A stretch of DNA of 64,000 nt from Macrocystis pyrifera. Taxonomy: Eukaryota; Sar; Phaeophyceae; Laminariales; Laminariaceae. Below are positions 1,032 through 35,568 of this stretch, piece by piece. Within the stretch, counting starts at the first letter, position 1. Each line of letters opens with the position of its first letter. The notes under the pieces were generated by a model. That model saw only the letters and a program-made list of their open reading frames with translations, had not been told where the DNA came from and did no database searches. The position numbers were made by a program, and so were the translations under genes. Location: NCBI GenBank assembly GCA_031763025.1, contig JASSKH010000031.1, forward strand, positions 3,087,783-3,151,782, read 5' to 3'.

Positions 1032-1127
1032 TATTACGGGGGACCATATCAAATAGGACCTACGGCACACACTAAACTATATGTTTGTCAATATTTAGGT
1101 CTTATTTACTGCGGTCCCCTCTAGTAG
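1032..1127 (+). mobile_element. MITE, CTATTACGGGGG-tip family (diverged)
   Basis: The left tip reads TATTACGGGGGACCATA, followed by AATAGGACCTACGG as in the long element. The right tip is eroded (GGTCCCCTCTAGTAG). It is about 96 bp and non-coding. The erosion suggests an older copy than the one at 620. Confidence 0.75.
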
Positions 1128-8644: not shown

Positions 8645-8820
8645 TCAACAGGTTAATTGCGCATTGCTTCCTGTGGGCTCTCATCGTACTGCCCATATAC
8701 TAAAGGTTGTCTCTCTCCCGTCGTGCATCATAAACACTGACGTTATGCCCAAGTTGAGTCTCGAGATAGCCCGACGTATTATACGATACCAGGATGGGAA
8801 ATGGGGGGGCGGGGGGGGGG

Positions 8821-8999
8821 GGCTATGCCATAGCAGCAGTATTACGGTGGTCAATGGGGCGGCGGGGGGGGGGCTATGCCATAGCAACAGTATTACGGTG
8901 GTCAATGGGGCGGCGGGGGGGGGCTATGCCATAGCAGCAGTGTTACGGTGGTCAACGGGGCGGCGGCGGGGGCTATGCCACAGCAGTAGTATTACGGGG
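8821..8999. repeat. Minisatellite, about 50 bp x 4, containing a TIR tip
   Basis: Four units start GGCTATGCCATAGCAGCAG, at about 8821, 8872, 8922 and 8971, separated by G-rich GGGGCGGCGGGGGG. Each unit includes TATTACGG(T/G)GGTC, nearly the tip of the adjacent MITE, and the last unit runs straight into the MITE. Unit B has only two such units (about 10925-10992). Confidence 0.8.
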
Positions 9000-9101
9000 G
9001 TCCATAGTTGATAGGACCTATATGGTATACATAAAAACCTATATATTTACCTATTTTCACTAAAAATAGTTGGTCCTATTTGGTATGGTCCCCCGTAATA
9101 G
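8990..9101 (+). mobile_element. MITE, CTATTACGGGGG-tip family, at the unit A site
   Basis: This 112 bp copy consists of about 55 bp of the left end of the long element joined to about 55 bp of its right end near TATATATTTAC. Both flanks match those of the 9 kb nested element in unit B (GCCACAGCAGYAG on the left, TATGYATATACAG on the right). It therefore occupies the same insertion site and looks like an internal-deletion derivative, or the converse by gene conversion. Confidence 0.9.
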
Positions 9102-9211
9102 TATGTATATACAGGCAGTATTAATAGTTGTAGTAACAATATTAATGTAATGTGTCTTGCCCGCGAGAGTATAGCAGTAGTATCGTCGACCGGGTAGCGA
9201 AGTTTGAAGTG

Positions 9212-9551
9212 TTTTTTTTTTTTTTTGTTTGTTTTTTTTTTTATCCATCACTTTTACTTCCCAGCCCACTCGCAGGAGGTTTTACCCTCGACGATCTTCT
9301 GGACAAGCCGTGGTCCCAGGTGTCGTCCCTTCTCCCCCCCGGTACGTGCCTTTATTTTTTGTCACGCATAGGGTTCAGCATTCCCACTGCTCGTCGATTT
9401 TCATCGAATGTAGCCAACTCACGCTTTCGCGCTTTCCGCTTATCAATTTTTTATGCACGACAAAGTCCCTATGAGCATGCACTCTGTGGGACTTGAACCC
9501 ACGAAATTGATCTTGACAGGCACGCAGACCACCCACCAAGCCACCGGGGAC
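9212..9551 (-). mobile_element. tRNA-derived SINE, copy 1
   Basis: Read on the minus strand it begins GTCCCCGGTGGCTTGGTGGG, a tRNA-like head with an A-box, followed by a B-box (GGGTTCAAGTCCCAC). The body is about 250 bp and it ends in poly-A (T-run at 9212-9240). Unit B preserves the empty site (GAAGTGTTTAGGACACGACG at about 20143). The filled site has GTTT on both sides, a short target duplication. The SINE therefore inserted after the tandem duplication or was not copied with it. Confidence 0.9.
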
Positions 9552-9775
9552 GTTTAGGACATGACGATAGCCGACTATTTCATTCAAGTCGTATACGAGT
9601 ATACTTATATGTACTCTTATTAATAGCAACAATAGATATTCGGGCAGTATTCGGGTAGGATATTGAGGATTGACTTAATGTTTTTAAGCTTCGGCTGTAC
9701 TTGCTGGTTGAAGAGTATCGCCGCCACCTTTGTCCGCCAGGAATGAATGATGCCGATCGCAAGATCTATTATAAA

Positions 9776-9864
9776 CCCCTTTAGTACCGCAGTCCCGATT
9801 TGGGGACAAACTAATCTAATTCCAAGTGATTTGTCCCCAAAACGGGACTGCGGTACTAAACGGG
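9776..9864. mobile_element. piggyBac-like MITE, 89 bp, in unit A
   Basis: The terminal inverted repeats are CCCCTTTAGTACCGCAGTCC and the complement ending GGACTGCGGTACTAAACGGG, about 36 bp each. It is flanked on the right by TTAA and on the left by TAAA. The unit B copy has TTAA on both sides. TTAA target duplication with CCC-starting tips is the piggyBac signature, and no transposase is inside. Confidence 0.75.
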
Positions 9865-9869
9865 TTAAT

Positions 9870-10440
9870 AGAGTGCCGCAACTTTGGTGTCACGCCGACC
9901 GTAATGACCAGCGGAAGAGCGGGACACAGCTCTTTTTCCATATAGGGCGTAGAGCTTGCGCCAGCGGCAAAATTATCTCCTAACCGACCTCAGGCCTGAA
10001 AAAATATCAACAACAGCAGTAGTCAGTCAGGCGTTTCGGTCGATAAAAACGTTTTTCCGCTTCCAGGTACTCGGAGGGCATGCCTCTAGAATTTTCCGCG
10101 CAATTGTTCGAAGAACTGACTGCGTAGCACCAACATCAGGTATGTCATCTTAAACGCCAAACGTTGATGCCATACTGACATTAACTATTAATATCTAGGA
10201 GGCAACGCCTCACTTGTTGCACTTTTACGGCACGAAGCCTAAATGTCCACGTAGTGTTTAGAAGATAGACTCTGGAATTCGTCACACGTGTTTTTTTTTA
10301 TAAAACATCTGTCGACCGGTTACGCACAGCTTGCTTTTTTTGGCCGGACAGTTTTTGATAATTTGAATGCAGTCGCAAAGTCTCTTTCAACACGTTCACA
10401 AAAACGAGCTTCTTTCCCCAAAATGTGGGAAATTGGCATT
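9870..10440. other. No gene recognised (unit A right flank)
   Basis: This sequence is duplicated at about 20470-21035 with few differences. Short frames are shared by both copies but contain no domain. A T-run occurs near 10290. Confidence 0.5.
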
Positions 10441-10534
10441 TCTCAGTCTGTTCCCAAAACCGGCCTGCAGTCCTAAAAAGGGTTATCAGGTTACTTACGC
10501 ATTGCTTCCTGGGCTCTCATCGTACTGCCCATAT

Positions 10535-10797
10535 TTTATTTATTTATTCATTTTTTTATCCATCACTTTTACTTCCCAGCCCACTCGTACGAGGTGTTAC
10601 CCTCGACGCTCTTCTGGACAAGCCGTGGTCACAGGTGTCGTCCCTTCTCCCCCCCCGGTACGTGCCTTTATTTTTTGTCGCGCATAGGGTCCAGCATTCC
10701 CACTGCTCGTCGATTTTCATCGAATGTAGCCAACTCACGCTTTCGCGCTTTCCGCTTATCAATTTGTTATGCAAGAAAAAGTCCCTATGAGCATGAA
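10535..10797 (-). mobile_element. tRNA-derived SINE, 5'-truncated copy
   Basis: The body and A-rich tail match 9212-9551, but the tRNA head is missing (it stops at CCCTATGAGCATG). It is flanked by a perfect CCATAT duplication (10529-10534 and 10798-10803). Unit A shows the empty site CCCATATACTAAAGG near 8690. Truncation at the head end is the hallmark of incomplete reverse transcription. Confidence 0.9.
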
Positions 10798-11479
10798 CCA
10801 TATACTAAAGGCTGTCTCTCTCCCGTCGTGCATCATAGACATCATGACGTTATGGCCAAGTTGAGTCTCGAGATTGCCCGACGTATTATACATGTACCAG
10901 GATGGGGAATGGGGGTGCGGGGGGGGCTATGCCATAGCAGCAGTATTACGGGGGTCAATGGGGCGGCGGCGGGGGCTATGCCACAGCAGCAGTGTTACGG
11001 GGGTCCATAGTTAATAGGACCTATGGTATACATAAAAACCTATATAAATACAACTATAATTACGATTTTTGAGGACGTTGTCACTTGCTAGCTCTTGGCA
11101 GACAGACCGACTGATAGACAGCTCTTCGCAAACAGCCCTTCTTCTTTGAAACAGCCGAACAGCCAAACAACCTTTCTTCCTTCTTTGAAACAGCCGAACA
11201 GCCAAACAACCTTTCTTCTTTCTTCTTCCGCAAACTGCCAACCAATAGACAACTCTTCGCACGGCGCCTAAAAGAGGCGTCTCGCCTTCGACGAACGGCA
11301 TAGATAGGTAGGTGCAGCTGTGTCGGCGGCCAAGCTGCTGCTGTCGGTGGCGAACCTGCTGGTGCTGCAACCCCCGCCGCTCCCTTCTCCACGCCCCCTA
11401 AGCTCACCTCCCCCTCGTCGAGAAGCGCGTGGTCCTCGCCCTCTGGCAAGAGAGCGGCAACGACAAAGACCGACCTGGT

Positions 11480-11690
11480 GCCGGCTGGTGTTTGCGACCA
11501 GTGCACGGACCAGCACTTGGTCAAGAACTCCGCGCCTGGTGGCAAAAACGTGGCCTTCGCCACCTGCAAGGATCTCACGTGCGTGGTGGCGGGATCATCC
11601 TGACAGAGCAACCGACTGCGAGTTCTGTGCTCGCCCGATCAAGGAAGGGACTGTCTCGTACTCCCTCGAGACTGCTGACAGTGATGAGTG
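11480..11690 (+). CDS. Zinc-finger-like coding segment of the long element (copy 1)
   Basis: Two overlapping plus frames look coding. One carries VCDQCTDQH ... ATCKDLTC (paired C-x2-C then further Cys). The next carries DCEFCARPIKEGTVSYSLE at about 11611-11670. The second resembles the start of a PARP-type-like CCHC finger: C-x2-C, then I-K-x-G. In copy 2 the matching segment ends at a GTGAGT donor (about 24953); copy 1 has GATGAGT there. A candidate acceptor with H-x-H-x-C coding (HMHNC) follows at 11840-11880, which could complete the finger after an intron. No single open frame spans all of it. The function is unproven; DNA or RNA binding is inference. Confidence 0.35.
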
Positions 11691-11839
11691 TCTTATGTCT
11701 ATTGTGCATGCTGTATGTTGCCAGTACGTTTTTTGGGGGTTTTCAATTGCCTTTTTGCACACAAACTTAAGTCAAAGCGTTTTTTTTTTGTTTACTCATC
11801 CATGCTCGTTTTTTCCCCTTCGTGCGTTGCGTCGGCTCC

Positions 11840-11945
11840 TCTTACACACAGTGCACGCGAACGCGCACATGCACAACTGTTTGCGGGACGTGAACGAAGG
11901 AACGGAGGATTCAGGTGTCGCCGTCACCGCTGCACCGAACGGCGT
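11840..11945 (+). CDS. Candidate second exon of the long-element gene (copy 1)
   Basis: It is bounded by CTTACACACAG upstream (an acceptor-like site) and GGCGTGAGTG downstream (a donor-like GTGAGT). The open frame reads HANAHMHNCLRDV then a Thr/Ala-rich stretch. The His-x-His-Asn-Cys end could supply the H and C ligands missing from the preceding CEFC segment. The same boundaries are present in copy 2 (about 25065-25165). The splice prediction is by eye only. Confidence 0.3.
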
Positions 11946-12501
11946 GAGTGCTGCTGCTACTGTGGTGCATTTTCGGTGCATGCACACGATTTCTGTGTGT
12001 ACATGATTGGGTGACCCCACGTACTCATTTTGCTCGTTTTCGGCTGCCGCTGCTGCTGCTGCTGCTGTCAGCGCCACGCCATGAGTGCTGCTGCCGCTGT
12101 GCACCTGCTTCTCCTGTGCACTCGCTGCTGCTGTAGTTCTGCTGCGTTGTTGCCGTGCTGTGCACCTGCTGCTCCTGTGCACTTGCTGCTGCGTTGTTGC
12201 CGTGCATCATGCTGGAAGCGTACATATTTTCGGATCGTCAATTCCGTAGGTTTTGCGATGGCGGCATACCAGGGTACATGCTTTTTTTCTTCCATATTTT
12301 CATATCGTTGCTATGCTGCTGCTGCTAATGCTGTACGAGTAGCTGCTTCTGCTGCTGCTGCTGCTAATGTGCTGCCGCAATATCCACTGAGTGTTCGTAT
12401 GTACTCGGATTACTGTTTTTCTTGGTCGTTTTTGTACCCAAATGGTTCCTTTTGATACGTGAAAAAATATTTTTGTCGTTTTGCTCCTGCATTTTGCGTA
12501 C

Positions 12502-12733
12502 TGTAGCCAAAAGATACCAAGCCGTGGAGGTTTCAGTGTAATCGCATGTGTGAGTGGAGCAGTGGCCGGGGATCCTGTGTGATGTCCCCTAGCCACCTGG
12601 CTCGTGGTCCGATGAGGATCACTCCGTGATAATACAAGCTCTAAGAACAAGACTTACTGAGTGCGAGGCCAGCGAGACTGGTGGAGTCCCTCGCTGGAAG
12701 CCCTCTTGCTGATATCATCTGGCAGAGGCCATA
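12502..12733 (+). repeat. 5' LTR
   Basis: It begins TGTAGCCAAAAGATACC and ends GGCAGAGGCCATA. It matches the 3' LTR across its full length by eye. Confidence 0.92.
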
Positions 12734-12940
12734 ATATCTAGATATTCGCGGAACTTCTGTTGGAGGAGTTTTCGGCTGCGGAGTATTGGGTCACAGCTGG
12801 GAAGGCAGTTGGCCCGTTGGACGGATCGAAACGGCTTGAAGCGCACAGCAGGGGAGGACGCTCCGGGAGCTGGAGGACGCACAGGTCAGGCGGCAGTTTC
12901 TCCGTTATTACAGTAGAGTCCAGGTGGACTGCTGTGGATT

Positions 12941-15900
12941 ATGGCGCACACGGCAAGCACGCCGCTGGTGGTAGGGGAGTCTCTGACTCCACCGAAATAC
13001 GGAGAGGTGTGGACCGAGCAGGCCTCTCGTGTTTTTTACGCAGCGTACCTCGATTATGAGGAACGGCTGCAGCTCGCCAACGCTCAGGGGGTGGTTCAGC
13101 ACTCCAAAGTGAGCATGGGCCAGCTTATCCCCAATTACATTCATCGGTGTTTTGAGGGATTTTACAAGCATCAGACTACGATGACCGCCTCGGAGTTGTT
13201 GGACGCTGTTAGGCAGCACGCTGGTTACACAACCACCAGCAACAGATTTGACACCTCGCGGGCGGCAGCGGACTTGCGTCGCGTTCTCTCAATGAGGCGC
13301 GATGAAAAGCAGGGCGGTGAAACATCCGTCAAAGACCGCGCGATGATGGTAAACTCCGCTATGGAAAAGTATTTTGCGGAGAATCACGCGGTGCATGCCA
13401 TGTACCGCGCGCAGGACCGTTCGTGGTTGCCCGGACCGGCGGAATTTGTGAGCATGGCGTTGGTGGATGGCTTATGGCCGTCCGAGTTCAAAAAGTACGT
13501 AAAAGGTCAGCTAACGTACGCTGCAGGGTGGAAGAAGGACCCGGCATTGGTCATGGACCAAATTTTTTCTGCTGCAGAACAGTGGAAATTCATCGAGGCG
13601 TATGGTCGGAAAGATGCTGCAGGGGCAGCTGAACCGCGACGCCAACAGCAGCAGAAACCGAAACAGCAGCAGTCCGCGAAAAAGTCGTTTGTTCGCGTCT
13701 GTTTCGAGTGTGGTGATCCCAACCATTATGTTTCTGATTGCCCAAAAGCTCGCGGTGGCGGCACAGCTCCCAGCAGTGGTGGGCGCGGGTCGTCAGGGTA
13801 TCGCGGGGGCCGCAATGGCGGCCGGGGCAGATTCAACCATGGACGCGGGCGCGGTGGCCGTGGTGGCAATCAATTGACAGCGGGCGGTGGAACTTCTGCT
13901 GTTGCTTCTTCAACTTCTGGTGCGCCAGCGGCAGGAGCCGCTGGGTCGGGATCTGGTTCGTCTGTTGCCGGCCGAGCTGTATACGTTGGAGGAGCTGGAA
14001 CATCGGTGGGTGCTGCTGGAGCGAGAACTTCGCCATCCACCGAGCGGGCGGAGTCAGTGTCTGGTGCTGCTGCAGGGGCGGTAGCGCCGGAACCGTCTGT
14101 ATATTCGACGTCTTGGTCGGGGTGGACCGCCGATTCTATTTCTTCGGCGCCGGCTGTAGGAGGGCAGCCATGGCGTCAGGTGACTCTTGGTACCGACCAG
14201 AGTTCAACGGCAGGTGAAGTGCCTGTCGATCGCAGCGCTGAGTGTTTACGCGCTGATCTCTCTTTGCCAGGGTCGGTTGGTTCGCTGATGGCGCGTGTGA
14301 TCCTTGATTCGGGGTCGGCGCTCACGTCCATCGGTGTCGGCTTACTTCAGCAGCTGTCTTCGCATTTCGGCGGCGCCGATCTGCAAATTCCGTTCGAAAA
14401 TGGCCCGCAGCAGGCGAAAACCGCTACGGGTGTTTCAGTGATGGTCACGCACAAAACGGTGCCGATTGCCGTGAGTGTACGGACGCCGTGGGGAGCGGTG
14501 AAATTGGAGCCCATCACTTTCGCGGTCATGCCTGGTACAGATAACGTCGTTCTGTTTGGCATGGCTACCATGAAAGCTCTTGGCATCGACGTCTACCGTG
14601 AAGCTCTGGAGAAGCTTCGCCCTCGCGCAGTGCCGGTATCGACCGGTGTGGAGACTCCGAGTTACCTTGCGGCGCGCAGAGTGACGGTTTCCGTGCGTGC
14701 TTTTCAGACCGAGGCTACGGTGGATGCTCCGGAGGACAAGGCGGTGGAACATTTGGTCGACCGGGGGCCAGACATGTTCATGGATCCGGAGGAGGAGCGG
14801 ACGGCCCGAGAACGGGCGTTGGAGGACAGCGTGCAGCAGGCAGAGCAGAGTGGATTAAGCGTCGGCGGAGCAACCCGTTTGCGCGAAATTTTGGCTCGTC
14901 GCGTGGGTGCTTTTCGCCGTGCGCTGTGTGGTGATCCGCCAGCGCAAGTGGAGCCGATGCGAGTGCAGCTGAAGCAACAGGCGAAGCCTGTCAAGGCAAC
15001 GCCACGTCGGTACGAACCGACGAAAAGGGACTGGCTCTCGAAGTGCATTGCTGCTTTGGTGTTTTTTGGCTTTGTCTACCACAACATCCAGGCGGTGTGG
15101 GCGAGTCCGGCGATGGCGGTGCCCAAGAAGGACTCTTTCCGTTTGGTGAGCGACTACTCGGCGGTGAACGCACAGGTGGAGAAGTCCCCGGGCGTCATGC
15201 CCAACCATGAAGACATGGGAGATCTGCTGGGGGCGCGTTTCTTCGGCAAGCTGGACCTACTTCAAGGGTACTGGCAGATGCCTTTGGCTCCGGAGGCGCA
15301 AGACGTCTTCACCATGGCGACAAGCGACGGTTTGTTCACGCCTACCCGTGTTCCCCAAGGTGTTTTGAATGCGACTTCTTATTTCCAAGGTGTCATGACT
15401 GAAGTGTTGCGTGGTTTGGATTGCAAAGTTTGGGTCGATGACGTTTTCTTTTTCGCAGACACCGAAGAAGCTCTTCTGCAGCTGCTTGATGACATTCTTG
15501 AACGCCTGGAGAATGTTGGACTGTTTGTCGCCGCCCACAAGTGTACCTTCTTCTCTCGTGAACTGGTCTGGTGTGGTAAGGTGTATTCCAATGGTGTCGT
15601 GTCCCATGACCCCGCTCGAGTGCAAGGTTTAAGTGAAATGCGTCGTCCCGAAAACGCTGGAGAACTAATGCAATTCTTGCAGGCTGTCAACTGGTTGCGT
15701 ACATCGTTACCACGTTTAGCGGAAACGGTAGCACCGTTACGTGATTTTTTGGAGGAGCTCCTTGTTGGGGCTACACGTCGGACTAAGCGAGTGGCGCGCA
15801 ATCGTGTCATCAAGGATACCGCGTGGACGGAGGATCGGGTGCGGGCGTGGAATGCCGCACGGGGTTTGGTGGCGCAAGCAGTGCCGCTTCATCATCCTCG

Positions 15901-17950
15901 TCCCGGGTGCGTTGTTCTGATGTTTCCTGACGCTTCTGATTTCCATTGGGGTAGTTTTCTCACCCAAGTGCCTGAACACGAATTTCGCAGTGGATTGGCG
16001 TTGGAAAGCATGTCTCACGAGCCTCTCGGATTTCTGAGTGGTTCGTTCACAGGTTCGCAGTTGCGCTGGGCGACTGTCGACAAAGAAGGTTTTGCGATCG
16101 TTAATACGTTCCGGAGGCTCGAATACCTGCTTTGGGGTGGTGTTCATATCTTTACTGATCATCGAAACTTGCAGTACATTTTCAATCCGGAGAAGTGTGT
16201 CACGACGGTCACAAAGACCATGGCACAACGCCTAGAGAATTGGAAGGGTGTTTTAGGACAATACCGCTATGCAATCGAACACATCCCTGGCGATCGAAAC
16301 TGTTGGGGGGATCTGTTGTCTCGTTGGGTCAAAGTTCCTACGGTGCCTGTTCGTTCGGTTGCCGTGCACAGCCCATGTAATGCTGACGATTCGCTTCCCG
16401 CATTGGATGTGATTCGTGCCTCGCAACAAAGGTCTGTCGCTCGTATCGGCGTTGGTGTTCATGAATTTTCGACAACCTTCGGTCAAGCTACCTTGGCCGA
16501 TGATGGTTTGTTTCGTGTGCGTGTTGGGGTGCGTGACGTCTTGTGGATTCCGCCGGATGATCTTGCTCTTCAAACTCGTTTGATGGTGTGCGCGCACATG
16601 CGCTCGGCTGGTCACCGTGGTGTGGCGCCGACTTTGTTTCGCCTGAAGGAATATTGTGTTTGGCCTCACATGGATTCTCAGGTTCGCGAATTCGTTCGCC
16701 AGTGTTTGCACTGTGTAGACACGCGTGCAGGTGCACTCATTCCTCGTCCCTACGGAGACACGGTGCATGGTACCGCTCCGGGAGAAGTGGTGCACTTTGA
16801 TTTTTTGTATGTTGGCCACAGCGGGCCCGAAGGTAGCGATGGCCTGCCTGATGAGGATGGTTTCCGATATGTTTTGGTCATCATGGATGATTTGTCCAAC
16901 TACGTGGCGTTGGAACCGGCCGAGGCTTGTACAGCCGAGGTCACAGCGAAGCATTTGCTAGCCTGGTGTAAGACTTTGGGGGTGCCGCGTGTGTGGGTGA
17001 GTGATACCGCCACGCATTTCAAGAACAGGGTGCTTGCTTTGTTGAGCGACGCGTTGCACATCGAACATCGTTTTGCTGTCGCTTACACGCCGTGGTCGAA
17101 CGGTACGTGTGAACGCATGGTAAAAGAGGTGGTACGTGCTCTGCGTTCCATTCTGTCAGAACAGCGTCGTCAGGTTTCGGAGTGGGTTGATGTTTTGCCG
17201 GCCGCTCAGTGGGCCTTGAACACTTCGTTTCGTGAACGTTACCGAAGCACTCCGTACAGCGTGATGTTTGGGCGTGCTCCGCGTACCGATTTCTCGGCGC
17301 TCGTTTCTGAGTCTGATGGCAGGTGGAATGTTGACGTGATGAATGCTGACTTGTTGCGTGCGAACGTCCGTGAAGTCGTTGCAGAGCAGGAGAGATTTTG
17401 CGCCGATATTCGCGCAGCTGTTGCCGTGTCTCGCGACAACAAACGTAAACAGGCTCAGGGCCAGGTGGTGTTGCCAAAATTTGCGGTTGGTGATTTCGTG
17501 TTGTATGCTCGTGTTCGTCGGCAGGGTGTCACACCGAAATTGTTGTCCACATGGACTGGTCCGTGGCGTGTGGTAGCAGCTGATCATGATCATGTGTACT
17601 CAGTTCAGAACATCGTTTCTGGGAAGGTGCATCAAGCTCACGTGGCTCGTTTACGATTTTATGCGGATGCGACGTTGAACGTCACCGCTGATCTGAAGGA
17701 TGTTTTCCAACATTCCTTTGCGCAGGGTGAATGCCGCATGAATGCTTTGGTGCATGTGGCCGAAGATGATGCCAACGAGGTGATTGTCTTGGTCGATTGG
17801 GATGGTTTCGAAGCAGAGGAGCGCACGTGGGAGTCTTTGCGGTCGATTTATTCTGCTGCGCCTGAATTCGTCGTGAAGGAATTGCGCAAATTACGGATGA
17901 CCCGTGCGCTCAAGATTAAAATTGCTTCAGAGTTCAGCATTGATTTGTGA
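12941..17950 (+). CDS. Gag-Pol polyprotein of the chromodomain gypsy element (1669 aa)
   Basis: A single open frame contains, in order: a Gag region with a zinc knuckle near residue 257 (CFECGDPNHYVSDC); a Gly/Ser/Ala-rich linker; an aspartic protease with DSG near residue 455; reverse transcriptase with the VWVDDVF active-site strand near 830; RNase H with FPDAS near 995; and integrase with an HHCC zinc motif (about 1219-1255) and D, D, E residues near 1287, 1352 and 1391. The C-terminal chromodomain (VLVDWDGFEAEERTWE, about 1615-1632) places it among chromoviruses. Gag and Pol share one frame, so no programmed shift is needed. The start chosen is the first ATG after the 5' leader. The encoded proteins assemble virus-like particles, copy RNA into DNA and integrate it; the chromodomain typically targets marked chromatin. 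Confidence 0.93.
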   Translation: MAHTASTPLVVGESLTPPKYGEVWTEQASRVFYAAYLDYEERLQLANAQGVVQHSKVSMGQLIPNYIHRCFEGFYKHQTTMTASELLDAVRQHAGYTTTSNRFDTSRAAADLRRVLSMRRDEKQGGETSVKDRAMMVNSAMEKYFAENHAVHAMYRAQDRSWLPGPAEFVSMALVDGLWPSEFKKYVKGQLTYAAGWKKDPALVMDQIFSAAEQWKFIEAYGRKDAAGAAEPRRQQQQKPKQQQSAKKSFVRVCFECGDPNHYVSDCPKARGGGTAPSSGGRGSSGYRGGRNGGRGRFNHGRGRGGRGGNQLTAGGGTSAVASSTSGAPAAGAAGSGSGSSVAGRAVYVGGAGTSVGAAGARTSPSTERAESVSGAAAGAVAPEPSVYSTSWSGWTADSISSAPAVGGQPWRQVTLGTDQSSTAGEVPVDRSAECLRADLSLPGSVGSLMARVILDSGSALTSIGVGLLQQLSSHFGGADLQIPFENGPQQAKTATGVSVMVTHKTVPIAVSVRTPWGAVKLEPITFAVMPGTDNVVLFGMATMKALGIDVYREALEKLRPRAVPVSTGVETPSYLAARRVTVSVRAFQTEATVDAPEDKAVEHLVDRGPDMFMDPEEERTARERALEDSVQQAEQSGLSVGGATRLREILARRVGAFRRALCGDPPAQVEPMRVQLKQQAKPVKATPRRYEPTKRDWLSKCIAALVFFGFVYHNIQAVWASPAMAVPKKDSFRLVSDYSAVNAQVEKSPGVMPNHEDMGDLLGARFFGKLDLLQGYWQMPLAPEAQDVFTMATSDGLFTPTRVPQGVLNATSYFQGVMTEVLRGLDCKVWVDDVFFFADTEEALLQLLDDILERLENVGLFVAAHKCTFFSRELVWCGKVYSNGVVSHDPARVQGLSEMRRPENAGELMQFLQAVNWLRTSLPRLAETVAPLRDFLEELLVGATRRTKRVARNRVIKDTAWTEDRVRAWNAARGLVAQAVPLHHPRPGCVVLMFPDASDFHWGSFLTQVPEHEFRSGLALESMSHEPLGFLSGSFTGSQLRWATVDKEGFAIVNTFRRLEYLLWGGVHIFTDHRNLQYIFNPEKCVTTVTKTMAQRLENWKGVLGQYRYAIEHIPGDRNCWGDLLSRWVKVPTVPVRSVAVHSPCNADDSLPALDVIRASQQRSVARIGVGVHEFSTTFGQATLADDGLFRVRVGVRDVLWIPPDDLALQTRLMVCAHMRSAGHRGVAPTLFRLKEYCVWPHMDSQVREFVRQCLHCVDTRAGALIPRPYGDTVHGTAPGEVVHFDFLYVGHSGPEGSDGLPDEDGFRYVLVIMDDLSNYVALEPAEACTAEVTAKHLLAWCKTLGVPRVWVSDTATHFKNRVLALLSDALHIEHRFAVAYTPWSNGTCERMVKEVVRALRSILSEQRRQVSEWVDVLPAAQWALNTSFRERYRSTPYSVMFGRAPRTDFSALVSESDGRWNVDVMNADLLRANVREVVAEQERFCADIRAAVAVSRDNKRKQAQGQVVLPKFAVGDFVLYARVRRQGVTPKLLSTWTGPWRVVAADHDHVYSVQNIVSGKVHQAHVARLRFYADATLNVTADLKDVFQHSFAQGECRMNALVHVAEDDANEVIVLVDWDGFEAEERTWESLRSIYSAAPEFVVKELRKLRMTRALKIKIASEFSIDL

Positions 17951-18028
17951 TTTGCCGCATGCGATTTCGTCTTGGTTTTTTGGTTTTGTCAAGCTCGTTC
18001 GTGTCGAGTGAACTCGCTTTGGGGGTGC

Positions 18029-18260
18029 TGTAGCCAAAAGATACCAAGCCGTGGAGGTTTCAGTGTAATCGCATGTGTGAGTGGAGCAGTGGCCGGGGAT
18101 CCTGTGTGATGTCCCCTAGCCACCTGGCTCGTGGTCCGATGAGGATCACTCCGTGATAATACAAGCTCTAAGAACAAGACTTACTGAGTGCGAGGCCAGC
18201 GAGACTGGTGGAGTCCCTCGCTGGAAGCCCTCTTGCTGATATCATCTGGCAGAGGCCATA
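18029..18260 (+). repeat. 3' LTR
   Basis: Same sequence as the 5' LTR. It is followed by GTACGTACTGC, the second half of the target duplication and the resumed host element. Confidence 0.92.
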
Positions 18261-19239
18261 GTACGTACTGCAATTTCTCGTTTTTGGCTTGCTTATTTTC
18301 ATATATATCGTTGCTATGCTGCTGCTGTGGTGCTGCTGCGTTGTTGCCGTATATCATGCTGCACTTGTGTGTGTACATATTTCGGTATCGTCGATGAAAT
18401 TCCGTAAGTTTTGCGATTGCGGCATACCAGGGTACATACTTTTTTTCTTCCTTATTTTTATGTCGTTGCTATGCCGCTGCTGCCAACGCGGATTATTGTT
18501 TTTATTGGCCATTTTTGTACCCAAATGGCTTTTTTGATACGTAAAAAAAATATTTTGGTCGTTTTGCTCCTGCATTTTGCGTACGTACTACTTTTTCTCG
18601 TATTTCGTATTATTGTTGCTATGCTGCTGCTGCGGTGTTGCCGTACAGCATGCGGTGGTGGGTCTATAGTGAGGTACCAAAAATATTTTTCGGACGGCCT
18701 CGGGGTACATTTTTTTTTCTCCCTTCTTTTCATATCGTTGCTATGCTGCTGCTGCCAACGCTGTGGCGATCCGTTGCTACTGCTTCTGCTGCTGCTGCTG
18801 CTCTGCTTTTAGTGCTGCCGCAATATTCACTGAATGTTTGTATGTACTCGGATAATTGTGTTTCCTGGTCGTTTTGTGGCGCTGCTGCGTTGTTGCCGTA
18901 CATCATGCTGGACATGATTTGTGTGTCTTGCACTTAAACTTGTGCGTGTGTACATATTTCTGTATCGTCAATGATATTTTTTGTGGTGCTGCTGCGTTGT
19001 TGCCGTACATCATGCTGCTGGACGTGATTTGTGTGTGTAATGTACTACACTTGCGTGTGTACATATTTCTGTATCGTCAATGAAATTACGTACTTGCTGC
19101 TTCTGCTGCTGCTGCTGCCGTCGTATAGCAAGCGATTACGTACTGCTGTTGTGCCGCTGTAGAGTAGTACAAATAATGAACTCTGCCCCCCCCCCCTCTT
19201 CCCCCTCCCCCGCCATTCCCCGCACGCCACTCCCGCCCC

Positions 19240-19764
19240 GCGCACCCTATATGTTTACTTCGACCAGGTCCGTGGCAAGTGCTACAACTGCCGCCTGACG
19301 GACTCCACCATCAAAGACGGAGACATCATCATCAAGCGCAAAAAGACTCCCTTCCATTTCGCCTGCTCCAGGGCTTCGCGGAATTCCGAAGCAGTACGCC
19401 AAGCAGATTGTCGCCATCCAGGACGAACGAAAGGAAACAAATTGTTTCCCACATTTCCCAAAATCACGATTATTTCTTCCTACACATATCCAACGGGTTC
19501 AACAGCGAACATATCCACATTCTGGGCCTCCCGCCTCGTTACTACAGCATCCTGGAAGACTATTTACATATCATGTCTCATCCAAACTCTTATGCTGGCT
19601 ACATCGAAATCGCGGCCGCCCAGCAACTATACAACATTTCCATAACCGTTGTCGTTGCCGGCACTGCTGCTTTCTCTCCTGTCCCAAACCTTCCTTTAAA
19701 CAACAACCTGTATGTTGTATATCATCCACATGCCAAGCACTACTCCACTCTCTCCCCACACTGA
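19240..19764 (+). CDS. CCHC finger and OTU-like protease segment of the long element (copy 1)
   Basis: One frame holds GKCYNCRLTDSTIKDGDI ... TPFHFAC (about 19274-19366), a C-x2-C ... H-x2-C finger like PARP-type zinc fingers. A different frame from about 19426 to the stop at 19762 holds RKQIVSHISQNHDYF, then SYAGYIEIAAAQQL (the OTU helix containing the G-x-x-E motif), NISITVV and finally NLYVVYHPHAKHYSTL, the strand and catalytic-His HY region of OTU cysteine proteases. I do not see the catalytic Cys (D-x-x-C) segment. The frame change lies at the same place in copy 2, so it is either an intron or an old shift. OTU enzymes remove ubiquitin-like modifiers. Assignment rests on motif recall. 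Confidence 0.5.
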   Translation, partial: AHPICLLRPGPWQVLQLPPDGLHHQRRRHHHQAQKDSLPFRLLQGFAEFRSSTPSRLSPSRTNERKQIVSHISQNHDYFFLHISNGFNSEHIHILGLPPRYYSILEDYLHIMSHPNSYAGYIEIAAAQQLYNISITVVVAGTAAFSPVPNLPLNNNLYVVYHPHAKHYSTLSPH

Positions 19765-20375
19765 TGAAAGATGTTATTCTTATTGTTAGACGAATGTCAT
19801 TCTTACTCTTGCGTCACCCGATCTTACGTTTCACACTACATTCATAAATAAACGCGATTATTACATCATTCACCGTTTCTTACACAAATACATTTAGTTT
19901 GGTTGGCTTTGGGCTATGTCGCCAATTAATTGCAGTTATACGTACACGAAACGACGGAGTACCCACTCCGAAGAAAAGCCTTGTATTTACATATTTTTAC
20001 AAAAAATAGTTGGTCCTATTTACTAAGGTCCCCCGTAATAGTATGCATATACAGTATTAATAGTTGTAGTAACAATATTAATGTAATGTGTCTTGCCCGC
20101 GAGAGAATAGTAATAGTATGGTCGACCGGGGGTAGCGAAGTTTGAAGTGTTTAGGACACGACGACGATAGCCGAATATTTCATTGAAGTCGAGTACGAGT
20201 ATACTTATATGTACTCTTAATAATAGCAATAATAGATATTCGGGCAGTATTCGGGTAGGATATTGAGGATTGACTTAATGTTTTTAAGCTTCGGCTGTAC
20301 TTGCTGGTTGAAGAGTATCGCCGCCACCTTTGTCCGCCAGGAATGAATGATGCCGATCGCAAGATCTATTATTAA

Positions 20376-20464
20376 CCCCTTTAGTACCGCAGTCCCGATT
20401 TGGGGACAAACCAGTCTAATTCCAAGTGATTTGTCCCCAAAACGGGACTGCGGTACTAAACGGG
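20376..20464. mobile_element. piggyBac-like MITE, 89 bp, in unit B
   Basis: The tips are CCCCTTTAGTACCGCAGTCC and the complement ending ACTAAACGGG. Perfect TTAA duplications lie at 20372-20375 and 20465-20468. It is the same locus as 9776-9864 through the tandem duplication, and non-coding. Confidence 0.8.
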
Positions 20465-21040
20465 TTAATAGAGTGCCGCAACTTTGGTGTCACGCCGACC
20501 GTAATGACCAGCGGAAGAGCGGGACACAGCTATTTTTCCATATAGGGCGTAGAGCTTGCGCCAGCGGCAAAATTATCTCCTAACCGACCTCAGGCCTGAA
20601 AAAACATCAACAACAGTAGTCAGTCAGGCGTTTCGGTCGATAAAAACGTTTTCCCGCTTCCAGGTACTCGGAGGGCATGCCTCTAGAATTTTCCGCGCAA
20701 TTGTTCGAAGAACTGACTGCGTAGCACCAACATCAGGTATGCCATCTTAAACGCCAAACGTTGATGCCATACTGACATTAACTATTAATATCTAGGAGGC
20801 AACGCCTCACTTGTTGCACTTTTACGGCACGAAGCCTAAATGTCCACGTAGTGTTTAGAAGATAGACTCTGGAATTCGTCACACGTGTTTTTTTAATAAA
20901 ACATCTGTCGACCGGTTACGCACAGCTTGCTTTTTTTGGCTGGACAGTTTTTGATATTTTGAATGCAGTCGCAAAGTCTCTTTCAACACGTTCACAAAAA
21001 CGAGCTTCTTTCCCGAAAATGTGGGAAACTGGCAGTTCTC

Positions 21041-21529
21041 GCCTCATAAAAATCCTTCCCCGAGGTTGATCGAGAGCAACTTCCCAGCTCTACGAACAGG
21101 GGGGCAGTTGCATGAATTCCCCGCAGCACATTTTCGATTCAACTGGGTAGAATATACGGCTGGTTTCGATTGCCGATCGCGCATATATATTTGCCTTTCG
21201 CCTCGGGGTGCGCGGGGGGTGGAGAGTATTGGTGAGGTATTTGTTTTTTTCGGGCTCGAACTTCAGCATCAACACTAATAATCTTATTGGCAGCATTCGA
21301 GGGTGGTAGCACTAGTCCACCGAGCTCGTACATTTTTCTTTCATTGATACGTAGCAGTATTTTTGGTTGCCTGTCACGTCGTTTGTATCATGTTTCATGA
21401 CCTTGCTTCAAAGTATTTTAGATATTTCTGGCCTGGCTTGTGCTGTTGTGGTCTCGCGCCCGGCACGTTAGCATTTCTCCTGGCTCCACCTACTGATTTG
21501 CGCGTATTGTGTGGATGTTTATCTATCTC
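21041..21529. other. No gene recognised
   Basis: Single-copy in this window. The short frames have no domain. Confidence 0.4.
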
Positions 21530-21612
21530 ACAGTATGTGACCATATATATACGCATGATATCTCTATAACTAGAATAAGAACTAGGACGGACACTGGGTG
21601 TACTGATAGCTG
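21530..21612 (+). mobile_element. LINE 3'-tail fragment
   Basis: CAGTATGTGACCAT ... GGACGGACACTGGGTGTACTG parallels CTGTGACCACATAG ... CACGGACACTGGGCTTGCTG at about 32467-32530 downstream of the LINE frame. It is a weak, diverged match. Confidence 0.35.
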
Positions 21613-24254
21613 TTTGTTGTTGTTATCACATTTTACCCACCATGTCCGTAATATTGAGACCGTGGTCACAGGACAGACAGGCTCCAAACCCTCGAGATGA
21701 CAGTGTAATAAGTCAAATACTAAAAAAAAAAACAGCCGTATACGCATACAAAATGGCTTAAACAAATCAGATCGTACACCTTAAACAAGAAAAGGTCAAG
21801 TCCCCGCACAAGTTGCAACCGAATAATCTTATGGGGTCGCATACGAGAAACAAACTGAAACGGAACGAAGCGAAGCAAACTAAATTACTTTAAATGAAAT
21901 GAAATTAAACGCGTCAAACCAACGCAAATAATAACTGTCAAATCAATCCCAAGGAGCACCAAACAAAAAATGAATAGGTGTCACGGGACAGGGGAATAAG
22001 AGGATAAGACGTGTCTGTCCTAGACCTCGAACCACGCGTGCAATGAAGGATAACTCTGGAAGCCAGGCATTTAGACCCCACCGGATTAGATCTCGGATTG
22101 TTAGGGGTCCGCACCACGGACCGTGTTGACCTCTCCCCGCAAGCTGAATATGCGGTTACCTCTCCAGAATCGACCCGATCAGACCCGGCCCTTTTGACCA
22201 CCTGCGGTGTCACTTTAAAAACCTTGACCTTTTCGCGCATGGCAATGCCTTGCCTTGCTAAATACACGAATAACTCCAATAATAGCGTAAGCCAGGGTCC
22301 ACCGGCTGCGAGGAAGGGCTCAGCAGGAGGAGAAAAATCAAGAGAGAGAGGGCGCGCGCCGTCGGTGCTGTGGTGGGTAGAATCGGCAATCAGAGCGCCG
22401 TCAGCTTGGACAGTGGTGGCAGCTCTTCATCTTCCAGCAGGTACGCCCAACCACGCATACATGCTCATGTCTCGCTTCTTCCTCGAGCAGCGTGTGAGCT
22501 TCACAACACTGTGCATGCTCCTCCATCTCGTCCTCGAGGCCATCACCGCGCTGGACATCTTCGAGAGCCGCCCAAAGCTACAACCAGCGCAGCAGTAGGC
22601 AAAAGACCATCGATACCGCGTACTGCGGCCATCGGGTGCGGACACGCGGTGCTGACGGGGTAGATATATATAAGGATGTATCACGCTGTATCGCCGCGAG
22701 CAGCAGCAGAAGTGACACCAGCCAAGCCAGCGTCGCCGATGTTGTGGTATGGCGTCGTGCCTGTCGTATGTCGAGTTGGTTTGGCGTGGGTGTGTGATAC
22801 TCGTACGAGTATGCAGCAGGACTTTCTAACTCTTCCGATGCATGAATCCGACGGGCGTGTTGGTTCGAAAATCTCAGCTTTTTTTACTGTCTGATCCAGT
22901 TGAAAAAAATACTGAAAAAGCTTGGATTGAAAAGGCACTTTTTTCAACTGCGTACGAAAGCCAATTTTTGTCGCCGATGGGAAACCGTCTTTTTCAATCC
23001 ATGTTTCCGACTGCATAAGAACTGGCCTAAAGCCTGTACTACCGAGAAACAATTGCAATTAGATAGAAAAAAATGAATTTGATTTGATTCGAATAGAATA
23101 AAATTTTGTGAAAATATGACTTTGGGTCCCATCGAGGAATAGCGGTTATTCTTCGAAAAAATCGAAAAACACACAAGGGTCAACGAACACCGGAGGGCAA
23201 CCAACGATGCGAGTCACGGCCCGCGTCCTCCCCGCGTCCTCCCCACGGTGCCCCGGCTCTATACGGTTGGTCTACTTACTATAAACCAGGCACTCCGTCA
23301 CATTAGCCCACCCTGAACGGCCGTAGATGCAGATCACACCACGACCAGCATTTTGGCTACTATGGACATCAGATCATCTGAAATAGGGGGTAAATACATA
23401 CTGCTATTAAAACAAACTAGAGCCCAAATGAAACAATAGGTCAACCCACACCTCGTAAATGAGGCTCAAACGCCTCTGATAAAAGTCTAACCCTTCAATG
23501 CATTGTAGGGGGATGCTGGATGGGGGCTGCACTGATGCTTGAGAGATAAAACGCAAAACGAAATTAATAAGACGAAAACAAAACGAAATGTTTGGCATGA
23601 TACACGGCGAGAATGGAAATACCAAGGAAAGGCCGACAATAGTGGGCCCGATACAGCAAGCCGTGACTGTTCGCTGCGCCAGCTGACGAGAAAAGCGGGA
23701 AAGGCCGAGCAAGACCAGCCACAAACAAGCAAGACAAGGATAAGGGAGGCGTGGTGAGCGCTCATAGGCGGGTGGATGTCGGCGCGTCTGAAACAGCGGG
23801 TCAGGCCGGAAGAAGACCGAAACGGCAGTACCCAGACAGACGGAGCCGATGCTGGCATAGGATTACGTGTTCGAGACAAGGGATCGTGCTGAAAACAAGG
23901 AAAACAAGTAAACGAGACACGAAACGTGCTGATACCCTCATGCGAACATAACAATTCAGAATTTGGAAGCCACACGCTCAAAGTTGAGGCGCAATATTTT
24001 GTTTGTGATTTTCTTACGGAAAAAAATCCGCTCGTGGCGTGTGCGTTCTACTCGGTTTCAGTATGTAGCTCTTTTCGGCTGACATGGAACAACAGGTGTA
24101 CGTACCTGATTTGGGCTTTTGCCCAAATAAAAACAAACTCGCATTAAGCTGGAATCCAACTCGCTCGCGAGGGCATCGCGGTTAGACCCCCGCACTGCAT
24201 CAAACCGAGAATCGCAGGACTCTACGGAAGGTCATAGACTTACTTGCAATAATA
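21613..24254. other. No confident gene; weak candidate frame at 22290-22598
   Basis: The plus frame ending at 22598 includes a hydrophobic run (MLMSRFFLEQRVSFTTLCML) and has better-than-chance look at 22440-22598, but an equally long competing frame overlaps it and no domain is recognised. A small inverted repeat (CAGTTGAAAAAAATAC and its partner) lies at about 22889-22952. From 23540 to 23950 the sequence is purine-rich. Confidence 0.35.
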
Positions 24255-24749
24255 CTATTACGAGGGTCCATAGTTGTAATAGGACCTATGGTATGCTTAA
24301 AAACCTATATAGATACAACTATAATTACGATTTTTGAGGTCGTTGTCACTTGCTAGCTCTTGGCAGACAGACCGACTGATAGACAGCTCTTCGCAAACAG
24401 CCCTTCTTCTTTGAAACAGCCGAACTGCCAAACAACCTTTCTTCTTTCTTCTTCGCCAAACGGCCAAACAACCTTTTCTTCTTTCTTCCTCCGCAAACTG
24501 CCAACCAATAGCTCTTCGCACGGCGCCTAAAAAAAGAGGCGTCTCGCCTTCGACGAACGGCATAGATAGGTGCAGCTGTCGGCGGCCAAGCTGCTGCTGT
24601 CGGTTGCGAACCTGCTGGTGCTGCAACCCCCGCCTCTCCCTTCTCCACGCCCCCTAAGCACACCTCCCCCTCGTCGAGAGGCGCGTGGTCCTCGCCCTCT
24701 GGCAAGAGAGCGGCAACGACAAAGACCGACCTGGTGCCGGCTGTTGTTT

Positions 24750-24955
24750 GCGACCAGTGCACGGACCAGCACTTACTTGGTCAAGAACTCCGCGCCTGGT
24801 GGCAAAAACGTGGCCTTCGCCACCAGCAAGGATCTCATGTGCGTGGTGGCGGGATCATCCTGACAGGGCATCCGACTGCGACTTCTGTGCTCGCCCGATC
24901 AAGGAAGGGACTGTCTCGTACTCCCTCGAGACTGCTGACAGTGGTGAGTGTCTTA
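24750..24955 (+). CDS. Zinc-finger-like coding segment of the long element (copy 2)
   Basis: This is the counterpart of 11480-11690. It keeps CDQCTDQH and the CDFCARPIKEGTVSYSLE segment and runs into GTGAGT at about 24953. Relative to copy 1, a 4 bp TACT insertion near 24777 moves the first finger frame, so this copy is not one continuous frame either. Shared exon-like boundaries in both copies favour a spliced ancestral gene. Confidence 0.3.
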
Positions 24956-25964
24956 CGTCTATTGTGCATGCTGTATGTTGCCAGTACGTTTTTTGGGGGT
25001 TTTCAATTGCCTTTTTGCATACAATCCTACGTCAAAGCGTTTATTTATTTCGTCGGCTCCTCTTACACACAGTGCACGCGAACGCGCACATGCACAACTG
25101 TTTGCGGGACGTGAACGAAGGAACGGAGGATTCAGCTGTCGCCGTCACCGCTGCACCGAACGACGTGAGTGCTGCTGCTACTGTGGTGCATTTTCGGTGC
25201 ATGCACACGATTTCTGTGTGTACATGTTTTTTTGGTGACCCCACGTACTCATTTTTTGCTCGTTTTCGGCTGCCGCTGCTGCTGCTGCTGCTGTCAGCGC
25301 CACGCCGTGAGTGCTGCTGCTGCTGTGCACCTGCTTCTCCTGTGCACTCGCTGCTGCTGTAGTGCTGATGCGTTGTTGCCGTGCTGTGCACTTGCTGCTC
25401 CTGTGCAATTGCTGCTGCTGTATGTAGTGCTGCTGCGTTGTTCCGCGTGCATCATGCTGGAAGCGTACATATTTTCGGATCGTCAATTCCGTAGGTTTTG
25501 CGATGGCGGCATACCAGGGTACATGCTTTTTTCCTTCCTTACTTTCATATCGTTGCTATGCTGCTGCTGCTGCTGCTGCTGCTGCCAACGCTGCTGCTGC
25601 TGCTGCCAACGCTGCGGCGATTCGTTGCAGCTTCTGCTGCTGCTAATGCTGTGGCTGCTTCTGCAGCTGCTGCTGCTAATGCTGCCGCAATATCCACTGA
25701 ATGTTCGTACGTATGTACTCGGATTACTGTCTTTCTTGGTCGTTTTTGTACTCAAATGGTTCCTTTTGATACGTGAATTTTTTTTTGTCGTTTTGCTCCT
25801 GCATTTTGCGTACGTACTGCAATTTCTCGTTTTTGGCTTGGTTATTTTCATATATATCGTTGCTATGCTGCTGCTGTGGTGCTGCTCGTACATCATGCTG
25901 CACTTGTGTGTGTTCATATTTCGGTATTGTCAATGAAATTCCGTAGGTTTTGCGATTGCGGCAT

Positions 25965-26269
25965 ATGCTAGATGGGTGTATCTCAGGTTCGACCTGGGTC
26001 TGCAGCAAGCTTCTCTTTCGGTAAGGTGTAGCGTGGAGGACACGCCAGGTATAGGTGAGGCTCGGCACGGTCAGCCGAGCAGAAGTGATCATGAAGCATG
26101 ACGCAAGTCATCTCACATGACAGTCATCAGCAATTACTTGGTGATGGAGGCTGGTAATTCCCCGCCTCAACTATCATCAGATCTATGGAGATCTGCGGCC
26201 ACTTTTAGTACAAGAGTCAATATCCACGATAACGGATGAACCACTGACTGTAGAGTAACGACCTGAGCA
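25965..26269. mobile_element. Solo-LTR-like insertion in copy 2
   Basis: A 305 bp block begins TGCTAGATGG and ends CCTGAGCA, with TG...CA termini and short inverted ends (TGCT/AGCA). It is absent from copy 1, which reads GCGGCATACCAGGGTACAT at this point (about 18418). No target duplication is visible, and a few bases of the site appear lost. Another class of insertion cannot be excluded. Confidence 0.4.
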
Positions 26270-27010
26270 GGTACATACATTTTTTCTTCCTTATTTTCAT
26301 ATCGTTGCTATGCTGCTGCTGCCAACGCGGATTATTGTTTTTATTGGCCATTTTTCTACCCAAACGGTTTTTTTTGATACAAAAAAAAAATATTTGGGTC
26401 GTTTTGCTCCTGCATTTTGCGTACATACTACTTTTTCTCGTATTTCGTATTGTTGCTATGCTGCTGCTGCGTTGTTGCCGTACAGCATGCGGAGGTGGGT
26501 CTATAGTGAGGTACCAAAAATACTTTTCGGACGGCCTCGGGGTACAAACTTTTTTTCTCCCTTCTTTTCATACCGTTGCTATGCTGCTGCTGCCAACGCT
26601 GTGGCGATCCGTTGCTGCTTCTGCTGCTGCTGCTCTGCTTTTAGTGCTGCCGCAATATTCACTGAATGTTTGTATGTACTCGGATAATTGTGTTTCCTGG
26701 TCGTTTTGTGGCGCTGCTGCGTTGTTGCCGTACATCATGCTGGACATGATTTGTGTGTCTATTACACTTAAACTTGTGCGTGTGTACATATTTCTGTGTC
26801 GTCAATGATTTTTTTGTGGTGCTGCTGCGTTGTTGCCGTACATCATGCTGGACGTGATTTGTGTGTGTACTGTACTACACTTGTGTGTCTACATATTTCT
26901 GTATCGTCAATGAAATTACGTACTTGCTGCTTCTGCTGCTGCTGCTGCCGTCGTATAGCAAGCGATTACGTACTGCTGTTGTGCCGCTGTAGAGTAGTAC
27001 AAATAATGAA

Positions 27011-27048
<38 letters not shown>

Positions 27049-27269
27049 CCCGCCATTCCCTGCACGCCACTCCCGCCCCGCGCACCCTATATGTTTACTT
27101 CGACCACGTCCGTGGCAAGTGCTACAACTGCCGCCTGACGGACTCCACCATCAAAGACGGAGACATCATCATCAAGCGCAAAAAGACTCCCTTCCATTTC
27201 GCCTGCTCCAGGGCTTGGCGGAATTCCGAAGCAGTACACCAAGCAGATTGTCGCCATCTAGGACGAACG

Positions 27270-27380
27270 AAAGGAAACAAATTGTTTCCCACATTTCCCA
27301 AAATCACGATTATTTCTTCCTACACATATCCAACGGGTTCAACAGCGAACAGATCCACATTCTGGGCCTCCCGCCTCGTC

Positions 27381-27415
<35 letters not shown>

Positions 27416-27966
27416 CATCATCACTTTTACTTTCCAGCCCACTCGTAGGAGGTTTTACCCTCGACAATCGTCTGGACAAGCCGTGGTCACAGGTGTCGTC
27501 CCTTCTCCCCCCCGGTATGTGCCTTTAATTTTTATCGCGCATAGGGTTCAGCATTCCCACTGCTCGTCCATTTTCATCGAATGTACAGCTAACTCACGCT
27601 CTCGCGCTTTCCGCTAATCAATTTTATGCAAGAAAAGTCCCTAGGAGTATGCACTCGGTGAGACTCGAACTCACGAAATTGATCTTGATAGGCTCGCGGA
27701 CCACCTACCAAGGCACCGGGGACGCCGGTGTATATCACTACAGCATCCTGGAAGACTATTTACATGTATATATCATGTCTCATCCAAACTCCTATGCTGG
27801 CTACATCGAAATCGCGGCCGCCCAGCAACTATGCAACATTTCCATAACCGTTGTCGTTGCCGGCACTGCTGCTTTCTCTCCCGTCCCAAACCTTCTTTTA
27901 AACAACAGCCTGTATGTTGTATATCATCCACATGCCAAGCACTGCTCCACTCTCTCCCCACACTGA
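27270..27966 (+). CDS. OTU-like protease segment (copy 2), interrupted by a SINE
   Basis: Matches 19426-19764. The N-terminal part (RKQIVSHISQNHDYF) ends at the SINE insertion at 27383. After the SINE, YSILEDYL resumes at about 27740 and runs through SYAGYIEIAAAQQL to the stop at 27964-27966. The final motif is HAKHCSTL instead of HAKHYSTL. With the insertion in the middle, this copy cannot make an intact OTU domain. Confidence 0.45.
27383..27734 (-). mobile_element. tRNA-derived SINE, copy 3 (nested)
   Basis: The minus-strand head GTCCCCGGTGCCTTGGTAGG (A-box) and GAGTTCGAGTCTCACC (B-box) are followed by the body and a pure A-tail (T-run 27383-27414). It is flanked by TCAC (27379-27382 and 27735-27738). 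Copy 1 of the long element keeps the empty site (CTCGTTACTACAGC at about 19535). The long uniform tail suggests a young insertion. Confidence 0.92.
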
Positions 27967-28299
27967 TGAAATATGTTATTCTTATTATTAGACGAATGTC
28001 ATTCTTACTCTTGCGTCACCCGATCTTACGTTTCACATTACATTCATAAATAAACGCTATCATTACATCCTTCATCGTTTTTTACACAAATACATTTAGT
28101 TTGGTTGGCTTTGGGCTATGTCGCCAATTAATTGCAGTTATATGTACACGAAACGACGGAATACCCACTCCGAAGGAAAGCCTTGTATTTACCTATTTTT
28201 ACTAACAAAATTTGGTTCCATTAACTATGGACCCCCGTAATAGTTCTTTTTCGGGTTATCGTAAGACTTCTCAGAGCGATAGTCTACTGTATGACGTAC

Positions 28300-35457: not shown

Positions 35458-35568
35458 CTATTACGGGGGTCCATAGTTAACGGGACCAAATTTTGTTAGT
35501 AAAAATAGGCAAATATATAGGTTTTTATGTACACTATAGGTCCTGTTAACTATGGACCCCCGTAATAG
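35458..35568 (-). mobile_element. MITE, CTATTACGGGGG-tip family
   Basis: 111 bp, with tips CTATTACGGGGGTCCATAG and CTATGGACCCCCGTAATAG nearly perfect and an interior highly similar to 620-730. This is one of the best-preserved copies. Non-coding. Confidence 0.92.

Follow-up and report, generated by a model that had tools for sequence, protein, structure and literature searches.

The question raised by this locus is what kind of mobile element places the same tips on two long elements and on a set of much shorter copies, and whether the protease-like gene seen inside the long elements belongs to it. The locus is a stretch of 64,000 nucleotides from Macrocystis pyrifera (GenBank assembly GCA_031763025.1, contig JASSKH010000031.1, positions 3,087,783 to 3,151,782 of the forward strand), called the window here, and all coordinates count from its first letter. 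The copies form a real family of terminal inverted repeat (TIR) elements with miniature inverted-repeat transposable elements (MITEs) as its short form, and the link to OTU proteases is plausible. Overall, we are inclined to regard them as non-autonomous TIR DNA transposons that target TA and are moved by a transposase encoded elsewhere, the long form carrying a decayed OTU-like gene; this seems to us somewhat better than an even proposition.

The tip CTATTACGGGGGTCC has 23 matches in the window at up to three mismatches, versus a mean of 1.27 and a largest count of 6 in 100 dinucleotide shuffles; some of the 23 are units of a minisatellite, and a few probably match by chance. Both tips are found at ten places, namely two long elements, A and B, and eight short copies of 97-128 bp; the comparison with the shuffles confirms the long and short copies with common tips reported in an initial annotation, whose start for A is corrected from 10993 to 10992 and whose end is kept. 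There are thus two size forms, one of ~3.3 kb and one, the MITE, of ~110 bp. The inverted tips, ~27-30 bp long, terminate each of the window copies listed below, three of which have a decayed right end.

10992 to 20041, plus strand: long element A, tip to tip, split by a long terminal repeat (LTR) retrotransposon; 3287 bp without it
24255 to 28243, plus strand: long element B, with two insertions; its LTR-retrotransposon site is empty
620 to 730, minus strand: MITE, from alignment to the long-element tips
1031 to 1127, plus strand: MITE, right end decayed
2012 to ~2139, plus strand: MITE, right end decayed
4156 to ~4270, plus strand: MITE, right end decayed, approximate
8989 to 9101, plus strand: MITE; its site corresponds to that of A, the two lying in different units of a tandem duplication
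35458 to 35568, minus strand: MITE, from alignment to the long-element tips
38625 to 38735, minus strand: MITE, from alignment to the long-element tips
53348 to 53457, minus strand: MITE, from alignment to the long-element tips

Each window MITE consists of ~50-57 bp of left tip joined to ~46-57 bp of right tip. The MITEs starting at 620, 8989, 35458, 38625 and 53348 share one junction between the two; in the decayed ones at 1031, 2012 and 4156 it is blurred. On the simplest reading of these sequences, the window MITEs would be one family that arose through an internal deletion in the long form. The earlier view of the long element as parent of the MITEs is supported by this joining of left tip to right tip, and the alignments bear out a TIR family that includes both forms.

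The two long elements are collinear from end to end, with main blocks 86.5, 90.4, 94.7 and 93.5% identical, which bears out the common internal order described before, and in both an AATAAA lies 194 bp before the right end. The interior, said earlier to be linked to these tips, is common to the two long copies (2 of 2) and absent from the 17 short ones compared. Short two-tip copies together with no transposase in the pieces scanned are the marks of a non-autonomous TIR or MITE family. Among the pieces of A and B scanned with Pfam, which do not include every open frame, no transposase domain was found, IS630 type included, apart from the retrotransposon nested in A, as the initial annotation had also concluded. 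The two long elements give the impression of dead passengers, mobilised in trans.

Flanking sequences point to the target. Nineteen copies were compared, drawn from the window and from contigs of metagenome-assembled genomes (MAGs); A and the MITE at 8989-9101 are not independent among them. TA ends the left flank in 16 of the 19 copies and begins the right flank in 14 of them, and in these counts two MAG rows were mis-anchored (L031b on the right by one base, L035 on the left by two), both of which read TA when correctly placed. The consensus is about TASTA before TTACGGGGG at the left end and TAGTA after CCCCCGTAA at the right, and most copies have a TA on each side as part of a TASTASTA-like site. 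Beyond TA, the flanks favour T-A-C/G at the left and G-T-A at the right, and six outer columns depart from base composition (uncorrected P from 0.003 to 8e-5, over copies that are not all independent). No excess of general flank matching beyond TA appeared in nine copies (lengths 1-12, offsets 0-5) or in 18 copies (lengths 2-6 and 8, offsets 0-3), and no general target duplication of 3-12 bp was seen. The simplest reading of these flanks is a TA duplication within a palindromic TACTAGTA-like site, as for TA-targeting transposases, and a transposase encoded elsewhere would then bind the tips and cut and paste the element into the central TA of such sites. These TA flanks had been missed in the initial annotation.

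A TA target, TIRs of ~28-30 bp and short two-tip derivatives are all characteristic of Tc1/mariner elements and Stowaway-type MITEs, and in these respects the present family, with its probable TA target, is like them. However, no mariner transposase was found among the pieces scanned, the tip sequence is different, and the long form contains an OTU-like gene remnant; Tc1/mariner would appear to fit in target only.

The gene remnant is made up of the following segments.

19259 to 19390, plus strand: zinc-finger-like segment CYNC...HFAC of A; no family match
27099 to 27230, plus strand: zinc-finger-like segment of B
19432 to 19764, plus strand: OTU-like segment of A, matching positions 32-121 of the 128 in the profile, with the HAKHY motif at its end
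27730 to 27963, plus strand: OTU-like segment of B, preceded by an insertion resembling a short interspersed nuclear element (SINE); no Pfam match alone
11620 to 11943, plus strand: segment beginning CEFC with a putative next exon, HANAHMHNC, predicted by eye

The CYNC...HFAC and SYAGYIEIAAAQQL...HAKHYSTL segments are present in A as first described, and B has the same except for HAKHC in place of HAKHY. For 19432-19761, OTU is the sole Pfam family at E values up to 10 (E 0.0024, 18.8 bits). A search of PDB with the OTU-like segment returned two sequences alone, both OTU domain-containing protein 2 (E 0.28 and 0.93), and in the first of these alignments KHYS, in the C-terminal histidine region, is matched with EHYN. 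The catalytic-cysteine part of the domain is absent, the PF02338 match starting at profile position 32. The OTU identity first proposed for this segment is therefore kept as plausible on profile and alignment evidence, with OTU the sole family found, and qualified by a sub-threshold score and the missing cysteine part; the A or B copies would hardly give a working protease. The zinc-finger family, on the other hand, is not borne out: no Pfam family was named for these segments, and PDB and NCBIfam gave a weak ribosomal L37e alone.

The multi-exon structure suggested earlier is retained as an intron-like organisation recognised by eye, with splicing limited to predicted sites. An acceptor-like ACACACAG precedes the putative exon at 11852-11943 and a donor-like GTGAGT follows at 11944. 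At the first donor-like site, A has ATGAGT where B has GTGAGT, and the CAG preceding the CYNC segment is CAC in B. Codon comparison of A and B gave 2 synonymous and 4 non-synonymous differences in 19573-19761, and 0 and 5, respectively, over 270 bp from 19259 in the zinc-finger frame; the final ~97 bp of this stretch fall within the OTU-like segment. The changes are few and show no sign of purifying selection. In the long form as we picture it, zinc-finger-like segments would flank a long intron-like stretch and be followed by an OTU-like C-terminal part that stops ~280 bp short of the right tip. Most likely, the gene would have been the autonomous relative's own, the middle and the catalytic-cysteine part having been lost.

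Several observations weigh against this picture of a TA-targeted family with a decayed OTU-like gene. On the side of the target, of 18 copies, 2 have exact 5-bp flank repeats, where 0.6 would be expected, and 4 have exact 3-bp repeats at offset 1, where 1.8 would be; a palindromic TA duplication also has the same look as insertion without duplication unless empty sites are seen, and with no transposase seen, the superfamily assignment relies on target and tip alone. On the side of the gene, the score of 18.8 bits lies below the PF02338 gathering cutoff of 23.3, the OTU-like piece was one of 14 scanned with Pfam, the corresponding segment of B has no Pfam match by itself, and an AlphaFold model of the piece was unusable (predicted local distance difference test score, pLDDT, 38). 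The zinc-finger-like segments are read in another frame than the OTU-like one and may or may not have formed one gene with it, and a gene of the element's own and a captured host gene are not separable.

This last point leads to the alternative that survives best, to which we give a real but minority chance. Pack-type TIR elements are non-autonomous and carry a gene fragment with introns, as the long form does, and a TA-targeting MITE may likewise have captured a fragment of a host zinc-finger/OTU gene, the gene never having been the transposon's. The lack of a transposase among the pieces scanned, the intron-like sequence kept, the missing N-terminal OTU part, the lack of a sign of selection between A and B, and the absence of the interior from the other 17 copies are all consistent with such a capture. 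Unlike in Pack-type elements, however, the putative gene here extends over most of the element, and the AATAAA lies at the same distance from the right end in both copies.

It is improbable, though less so than the two transposon classes considered next, that the OTU and zinc-finger readings are chance and the long element a non-coding TIR element. The sub-threshold score, the segments without a zinc-finger family, the broken frames, the lack of a selection sign and the B segment without a match would all be accounted for in this way. But Pfam and PDB searches, which are not fully independent, both return OTU proteins alone, and in the alignment the C-terminal HY faces the HY of an OTU protein.

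Among the systems described in the part of the literature consulted, Ginger1 is the closest known OTU-bearing TIR transposon: its members have introns, and in some families an OTU-like protease domain is C-terminal in the transposase (PMC2836005). OTU-bearing Ginger1 families measure 2.6-4.6 kb in that account, so that size, TIRs, introns and a C-terminal OTU would suit a degenerate Ginger1 transposon (PMC2836005). However, Ginger1 as described there has TGTNR ends, a 4-bp CCGG/CCGT duplication and an integrase-type transposase, whereas this family has (TA)TTACGGGGG ends, TA flanks and no transposase found. Among the pieces scanned, integrase is present in the nested retrotransposon alone, and the OTU-like part is sub-threshold. 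Disfavoured by both tips and target, a Ginger1 origin is very improbable.

Membership among Helentrons or Helitron-like rolling-circle elements is rejected as scarcely credible: the lack of a clear duplication longer than TA would suit them, but the window copies begin and end in inverted tips (decayed at the right in three of them), the pieces scanned gave no Rep/helicase match, and the TC...CTRR ends of Helitrons are not seen. The likeness to Helentrons, rolling-circle elements with Rep/helicase in the account available, lies in their OTU-like cysteine protease genes and non-autonomous relatives, and the difference in the inverted tips at both ends and TA flanks found here (PMC4067079).

What a TA-targeted family with an OTU-like gene would mean depends on where such proteases have been seen. 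According to the portions of the two accounts used here, ubiquitin-family proteases occur in unrelated transposons, Ulp1 in Mutator and Ginger1, and OTU in Ginger1 and Helitrons/Helentrons (PMC2836005; PMC4067079). Their role in transposition is unsettled, and a TA-targeting OTU family would be an independent test case. A bolder proposal, which we consider doubtful, is that brown algae harbour an undescribed lineage of TA-targeting DNA transposons, with an autonomous member whose zinc-finger transposase has an OTU deubiquitinase at its C-terminus; if true, this would be a further independent recruitment of OTU besides Ginger1 and Helentrons. A literature search for an OTU-bearing TA/TIR transposon showed no TA-targeting OTU element among the papers listed, and a search with the tip strings found no relevant paper.

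The length of A raised a separate matter. A composite element of 9 kb was considered and ruled out, A being a 3287 bp element split by a Ty3/gypsy retrotransposon whose insertion site is empty in B.

12502 to 18260, plus strand: nested Ty3/gypsy LTR retrotransposon, recognised from LTRs and domains (12498 to 18264 with GTAC on each side)

Its LTRs (12502-12733 and 18029-18260) are direct copies identical at 232 of 232 positions, and an uninterrupted open frame of 1677 codons (12917-17950) encodes a gag zinc knuckle, reverse transcriptase, RNase H, integrase and a sub-threshold chromodomain. LTRs, target duplication, reverse transcriptase, RNase H and integrase, as expected of Ty3/gypsy, are thus all present. 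Because the LTRs are identical and the frame is uninterrupted, the insertion in A is probably recent. The CCHC zinc finger formerly placed in the TIR element is accordingly reassigned: zinc-finger-like segments are there, but of C-x2-C...H-x2-C type, and the sole Pfam CCHC knuckle (PF00098) belongs to the gypsy open reading frame.

A stands in one unit of a tandem duplication which, like the nested 5.8 kb gypsy element, had been missed in the initial annotation.

8605 to 10444, plus strand: tandem duplication unit 1, holding the MITE at 8989-9101
10445 to 21040, plus strand: tandem duplication unit 2, holding A

The unit starts match at 79 of 84 aligned bases (9 gap columns), the sequence adjoining the element at 99 of 104 (6 gap columns) and that past the SINE at 868 of 888 (7 gap columns), and the left flanks of the two units agree at 89% across 200 bp. 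Where unit 1 has a 113 bp MITE, unit 2 has A. The right tips of A and this MITE have AATAGTTGG in common, found in none of the other 17 right tips compared. Conversion or gap repair between family members via the shared tips, in either direction, would be the simplest explanation of the difference. A simple conversion story is complicated by the left tip of A, which resembles that of the MITE at 620 (0.96) or 35458 (0.94) more than that of the one at 8989 (0.90), and by its right tip, as close to the MITE at 38625 (0.89) as to that at 8989; the difference may also be an assembly error. With a MITE and a long element at matching sites of its two units, the duplication would be a compact natural record of replacement between MITE and parent. 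In addition, a minisatellite of 49-50 bp units occupies 8806-9002 and 10908-11005, each unit including ~14 bases of element tip plus left flank, and apparently arose at the insertion edge.

Copies outside the window came from published MAGs. When GTDB contigs were scanned with a 17-base tip pattern, six contigs were found, three of which align to window MITEs (best identity 87% for L001, 89% for L002 and 83% for L006); the other three have no match to the window. The three MAGs concerned supplied the nine further copies used, on five contigs and near contig ends. Bacterial genes lie beyond the copies on four of the five (L031-L034, L035 being outside this check), with Pfam matches to ATP synthase beta, release factor, TonB receptor, RsgA and oxidoreductase. 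The MITE-bearing MAG contigs therefore appear to be assembly chimeras of alga and bacterium, that is, algal contamination. In L033, a bacterial-looking frame (114-422) starts directly at the MITE, and this contig may be a chimera or an insertion into bacterial DNA, the two not being told apart. Kelp DNA made up 39.0-49.8% of whole-tissue assemblies in the portion consulted of a bull-kelp study, whose genera those of the MAGs resemble, with no accession link seen (PMC9238374); a brown alga is thereby suggested as the source of the copies.

The long form was sought in the same material. In the three MAGs, element B gave tip matches and short low-complexity or SINE matches, with no zinc-finger or OTU part, and a search with the OTU protein gave no match in any of the three. 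Among the best two candidates per genome in sets of 394 and 301 genomes, zinc-finger, OTU and right-tip DNA gave tip matches in G003 and G002 alone, with one short non-tip match of 28-34 bp in 1 of the 394 and 3 of the 301. Viral contigs scanned with the tip, SINE, OTU piece, zinc-finger piece and gypsy frame yielded no relative, and plasmids no match. When 398 genomes were searched with the MITE, G001 and G336 gave matches and G376 a weak one; the matching piece of G336 lies at the start of a contig and is outside the 19-copy set.

Finally, B and the rest of the window hold other repeats.

~25965 to 26268, no strand assigned: insertion in B only, type unassigned, ~300 bp with approximate limits; absent from A
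~27379 to 27740, no strand assigned: SINE-like insertion in B, approximate limits
9212-9552, 10534-10798, 27379-27740, 45476-45821 and 56743-57078: the five window copies of the SINE-like family
20372 to 20470: inverted repeat of ~100 bp with TTAA flanks and CCC ends; a copy in 9770-9871 and a relative in L032, 2947-3048

The SINE-like copies have one T-rich end and another that is tRNA-like by eye; ARAGORN and Rfam gave no match to a tRNA or RNA family in the window, these copies included. The TTAA-flanked inverted repeat is, by its appearance, what we take to be a piggyBac-like MITE.

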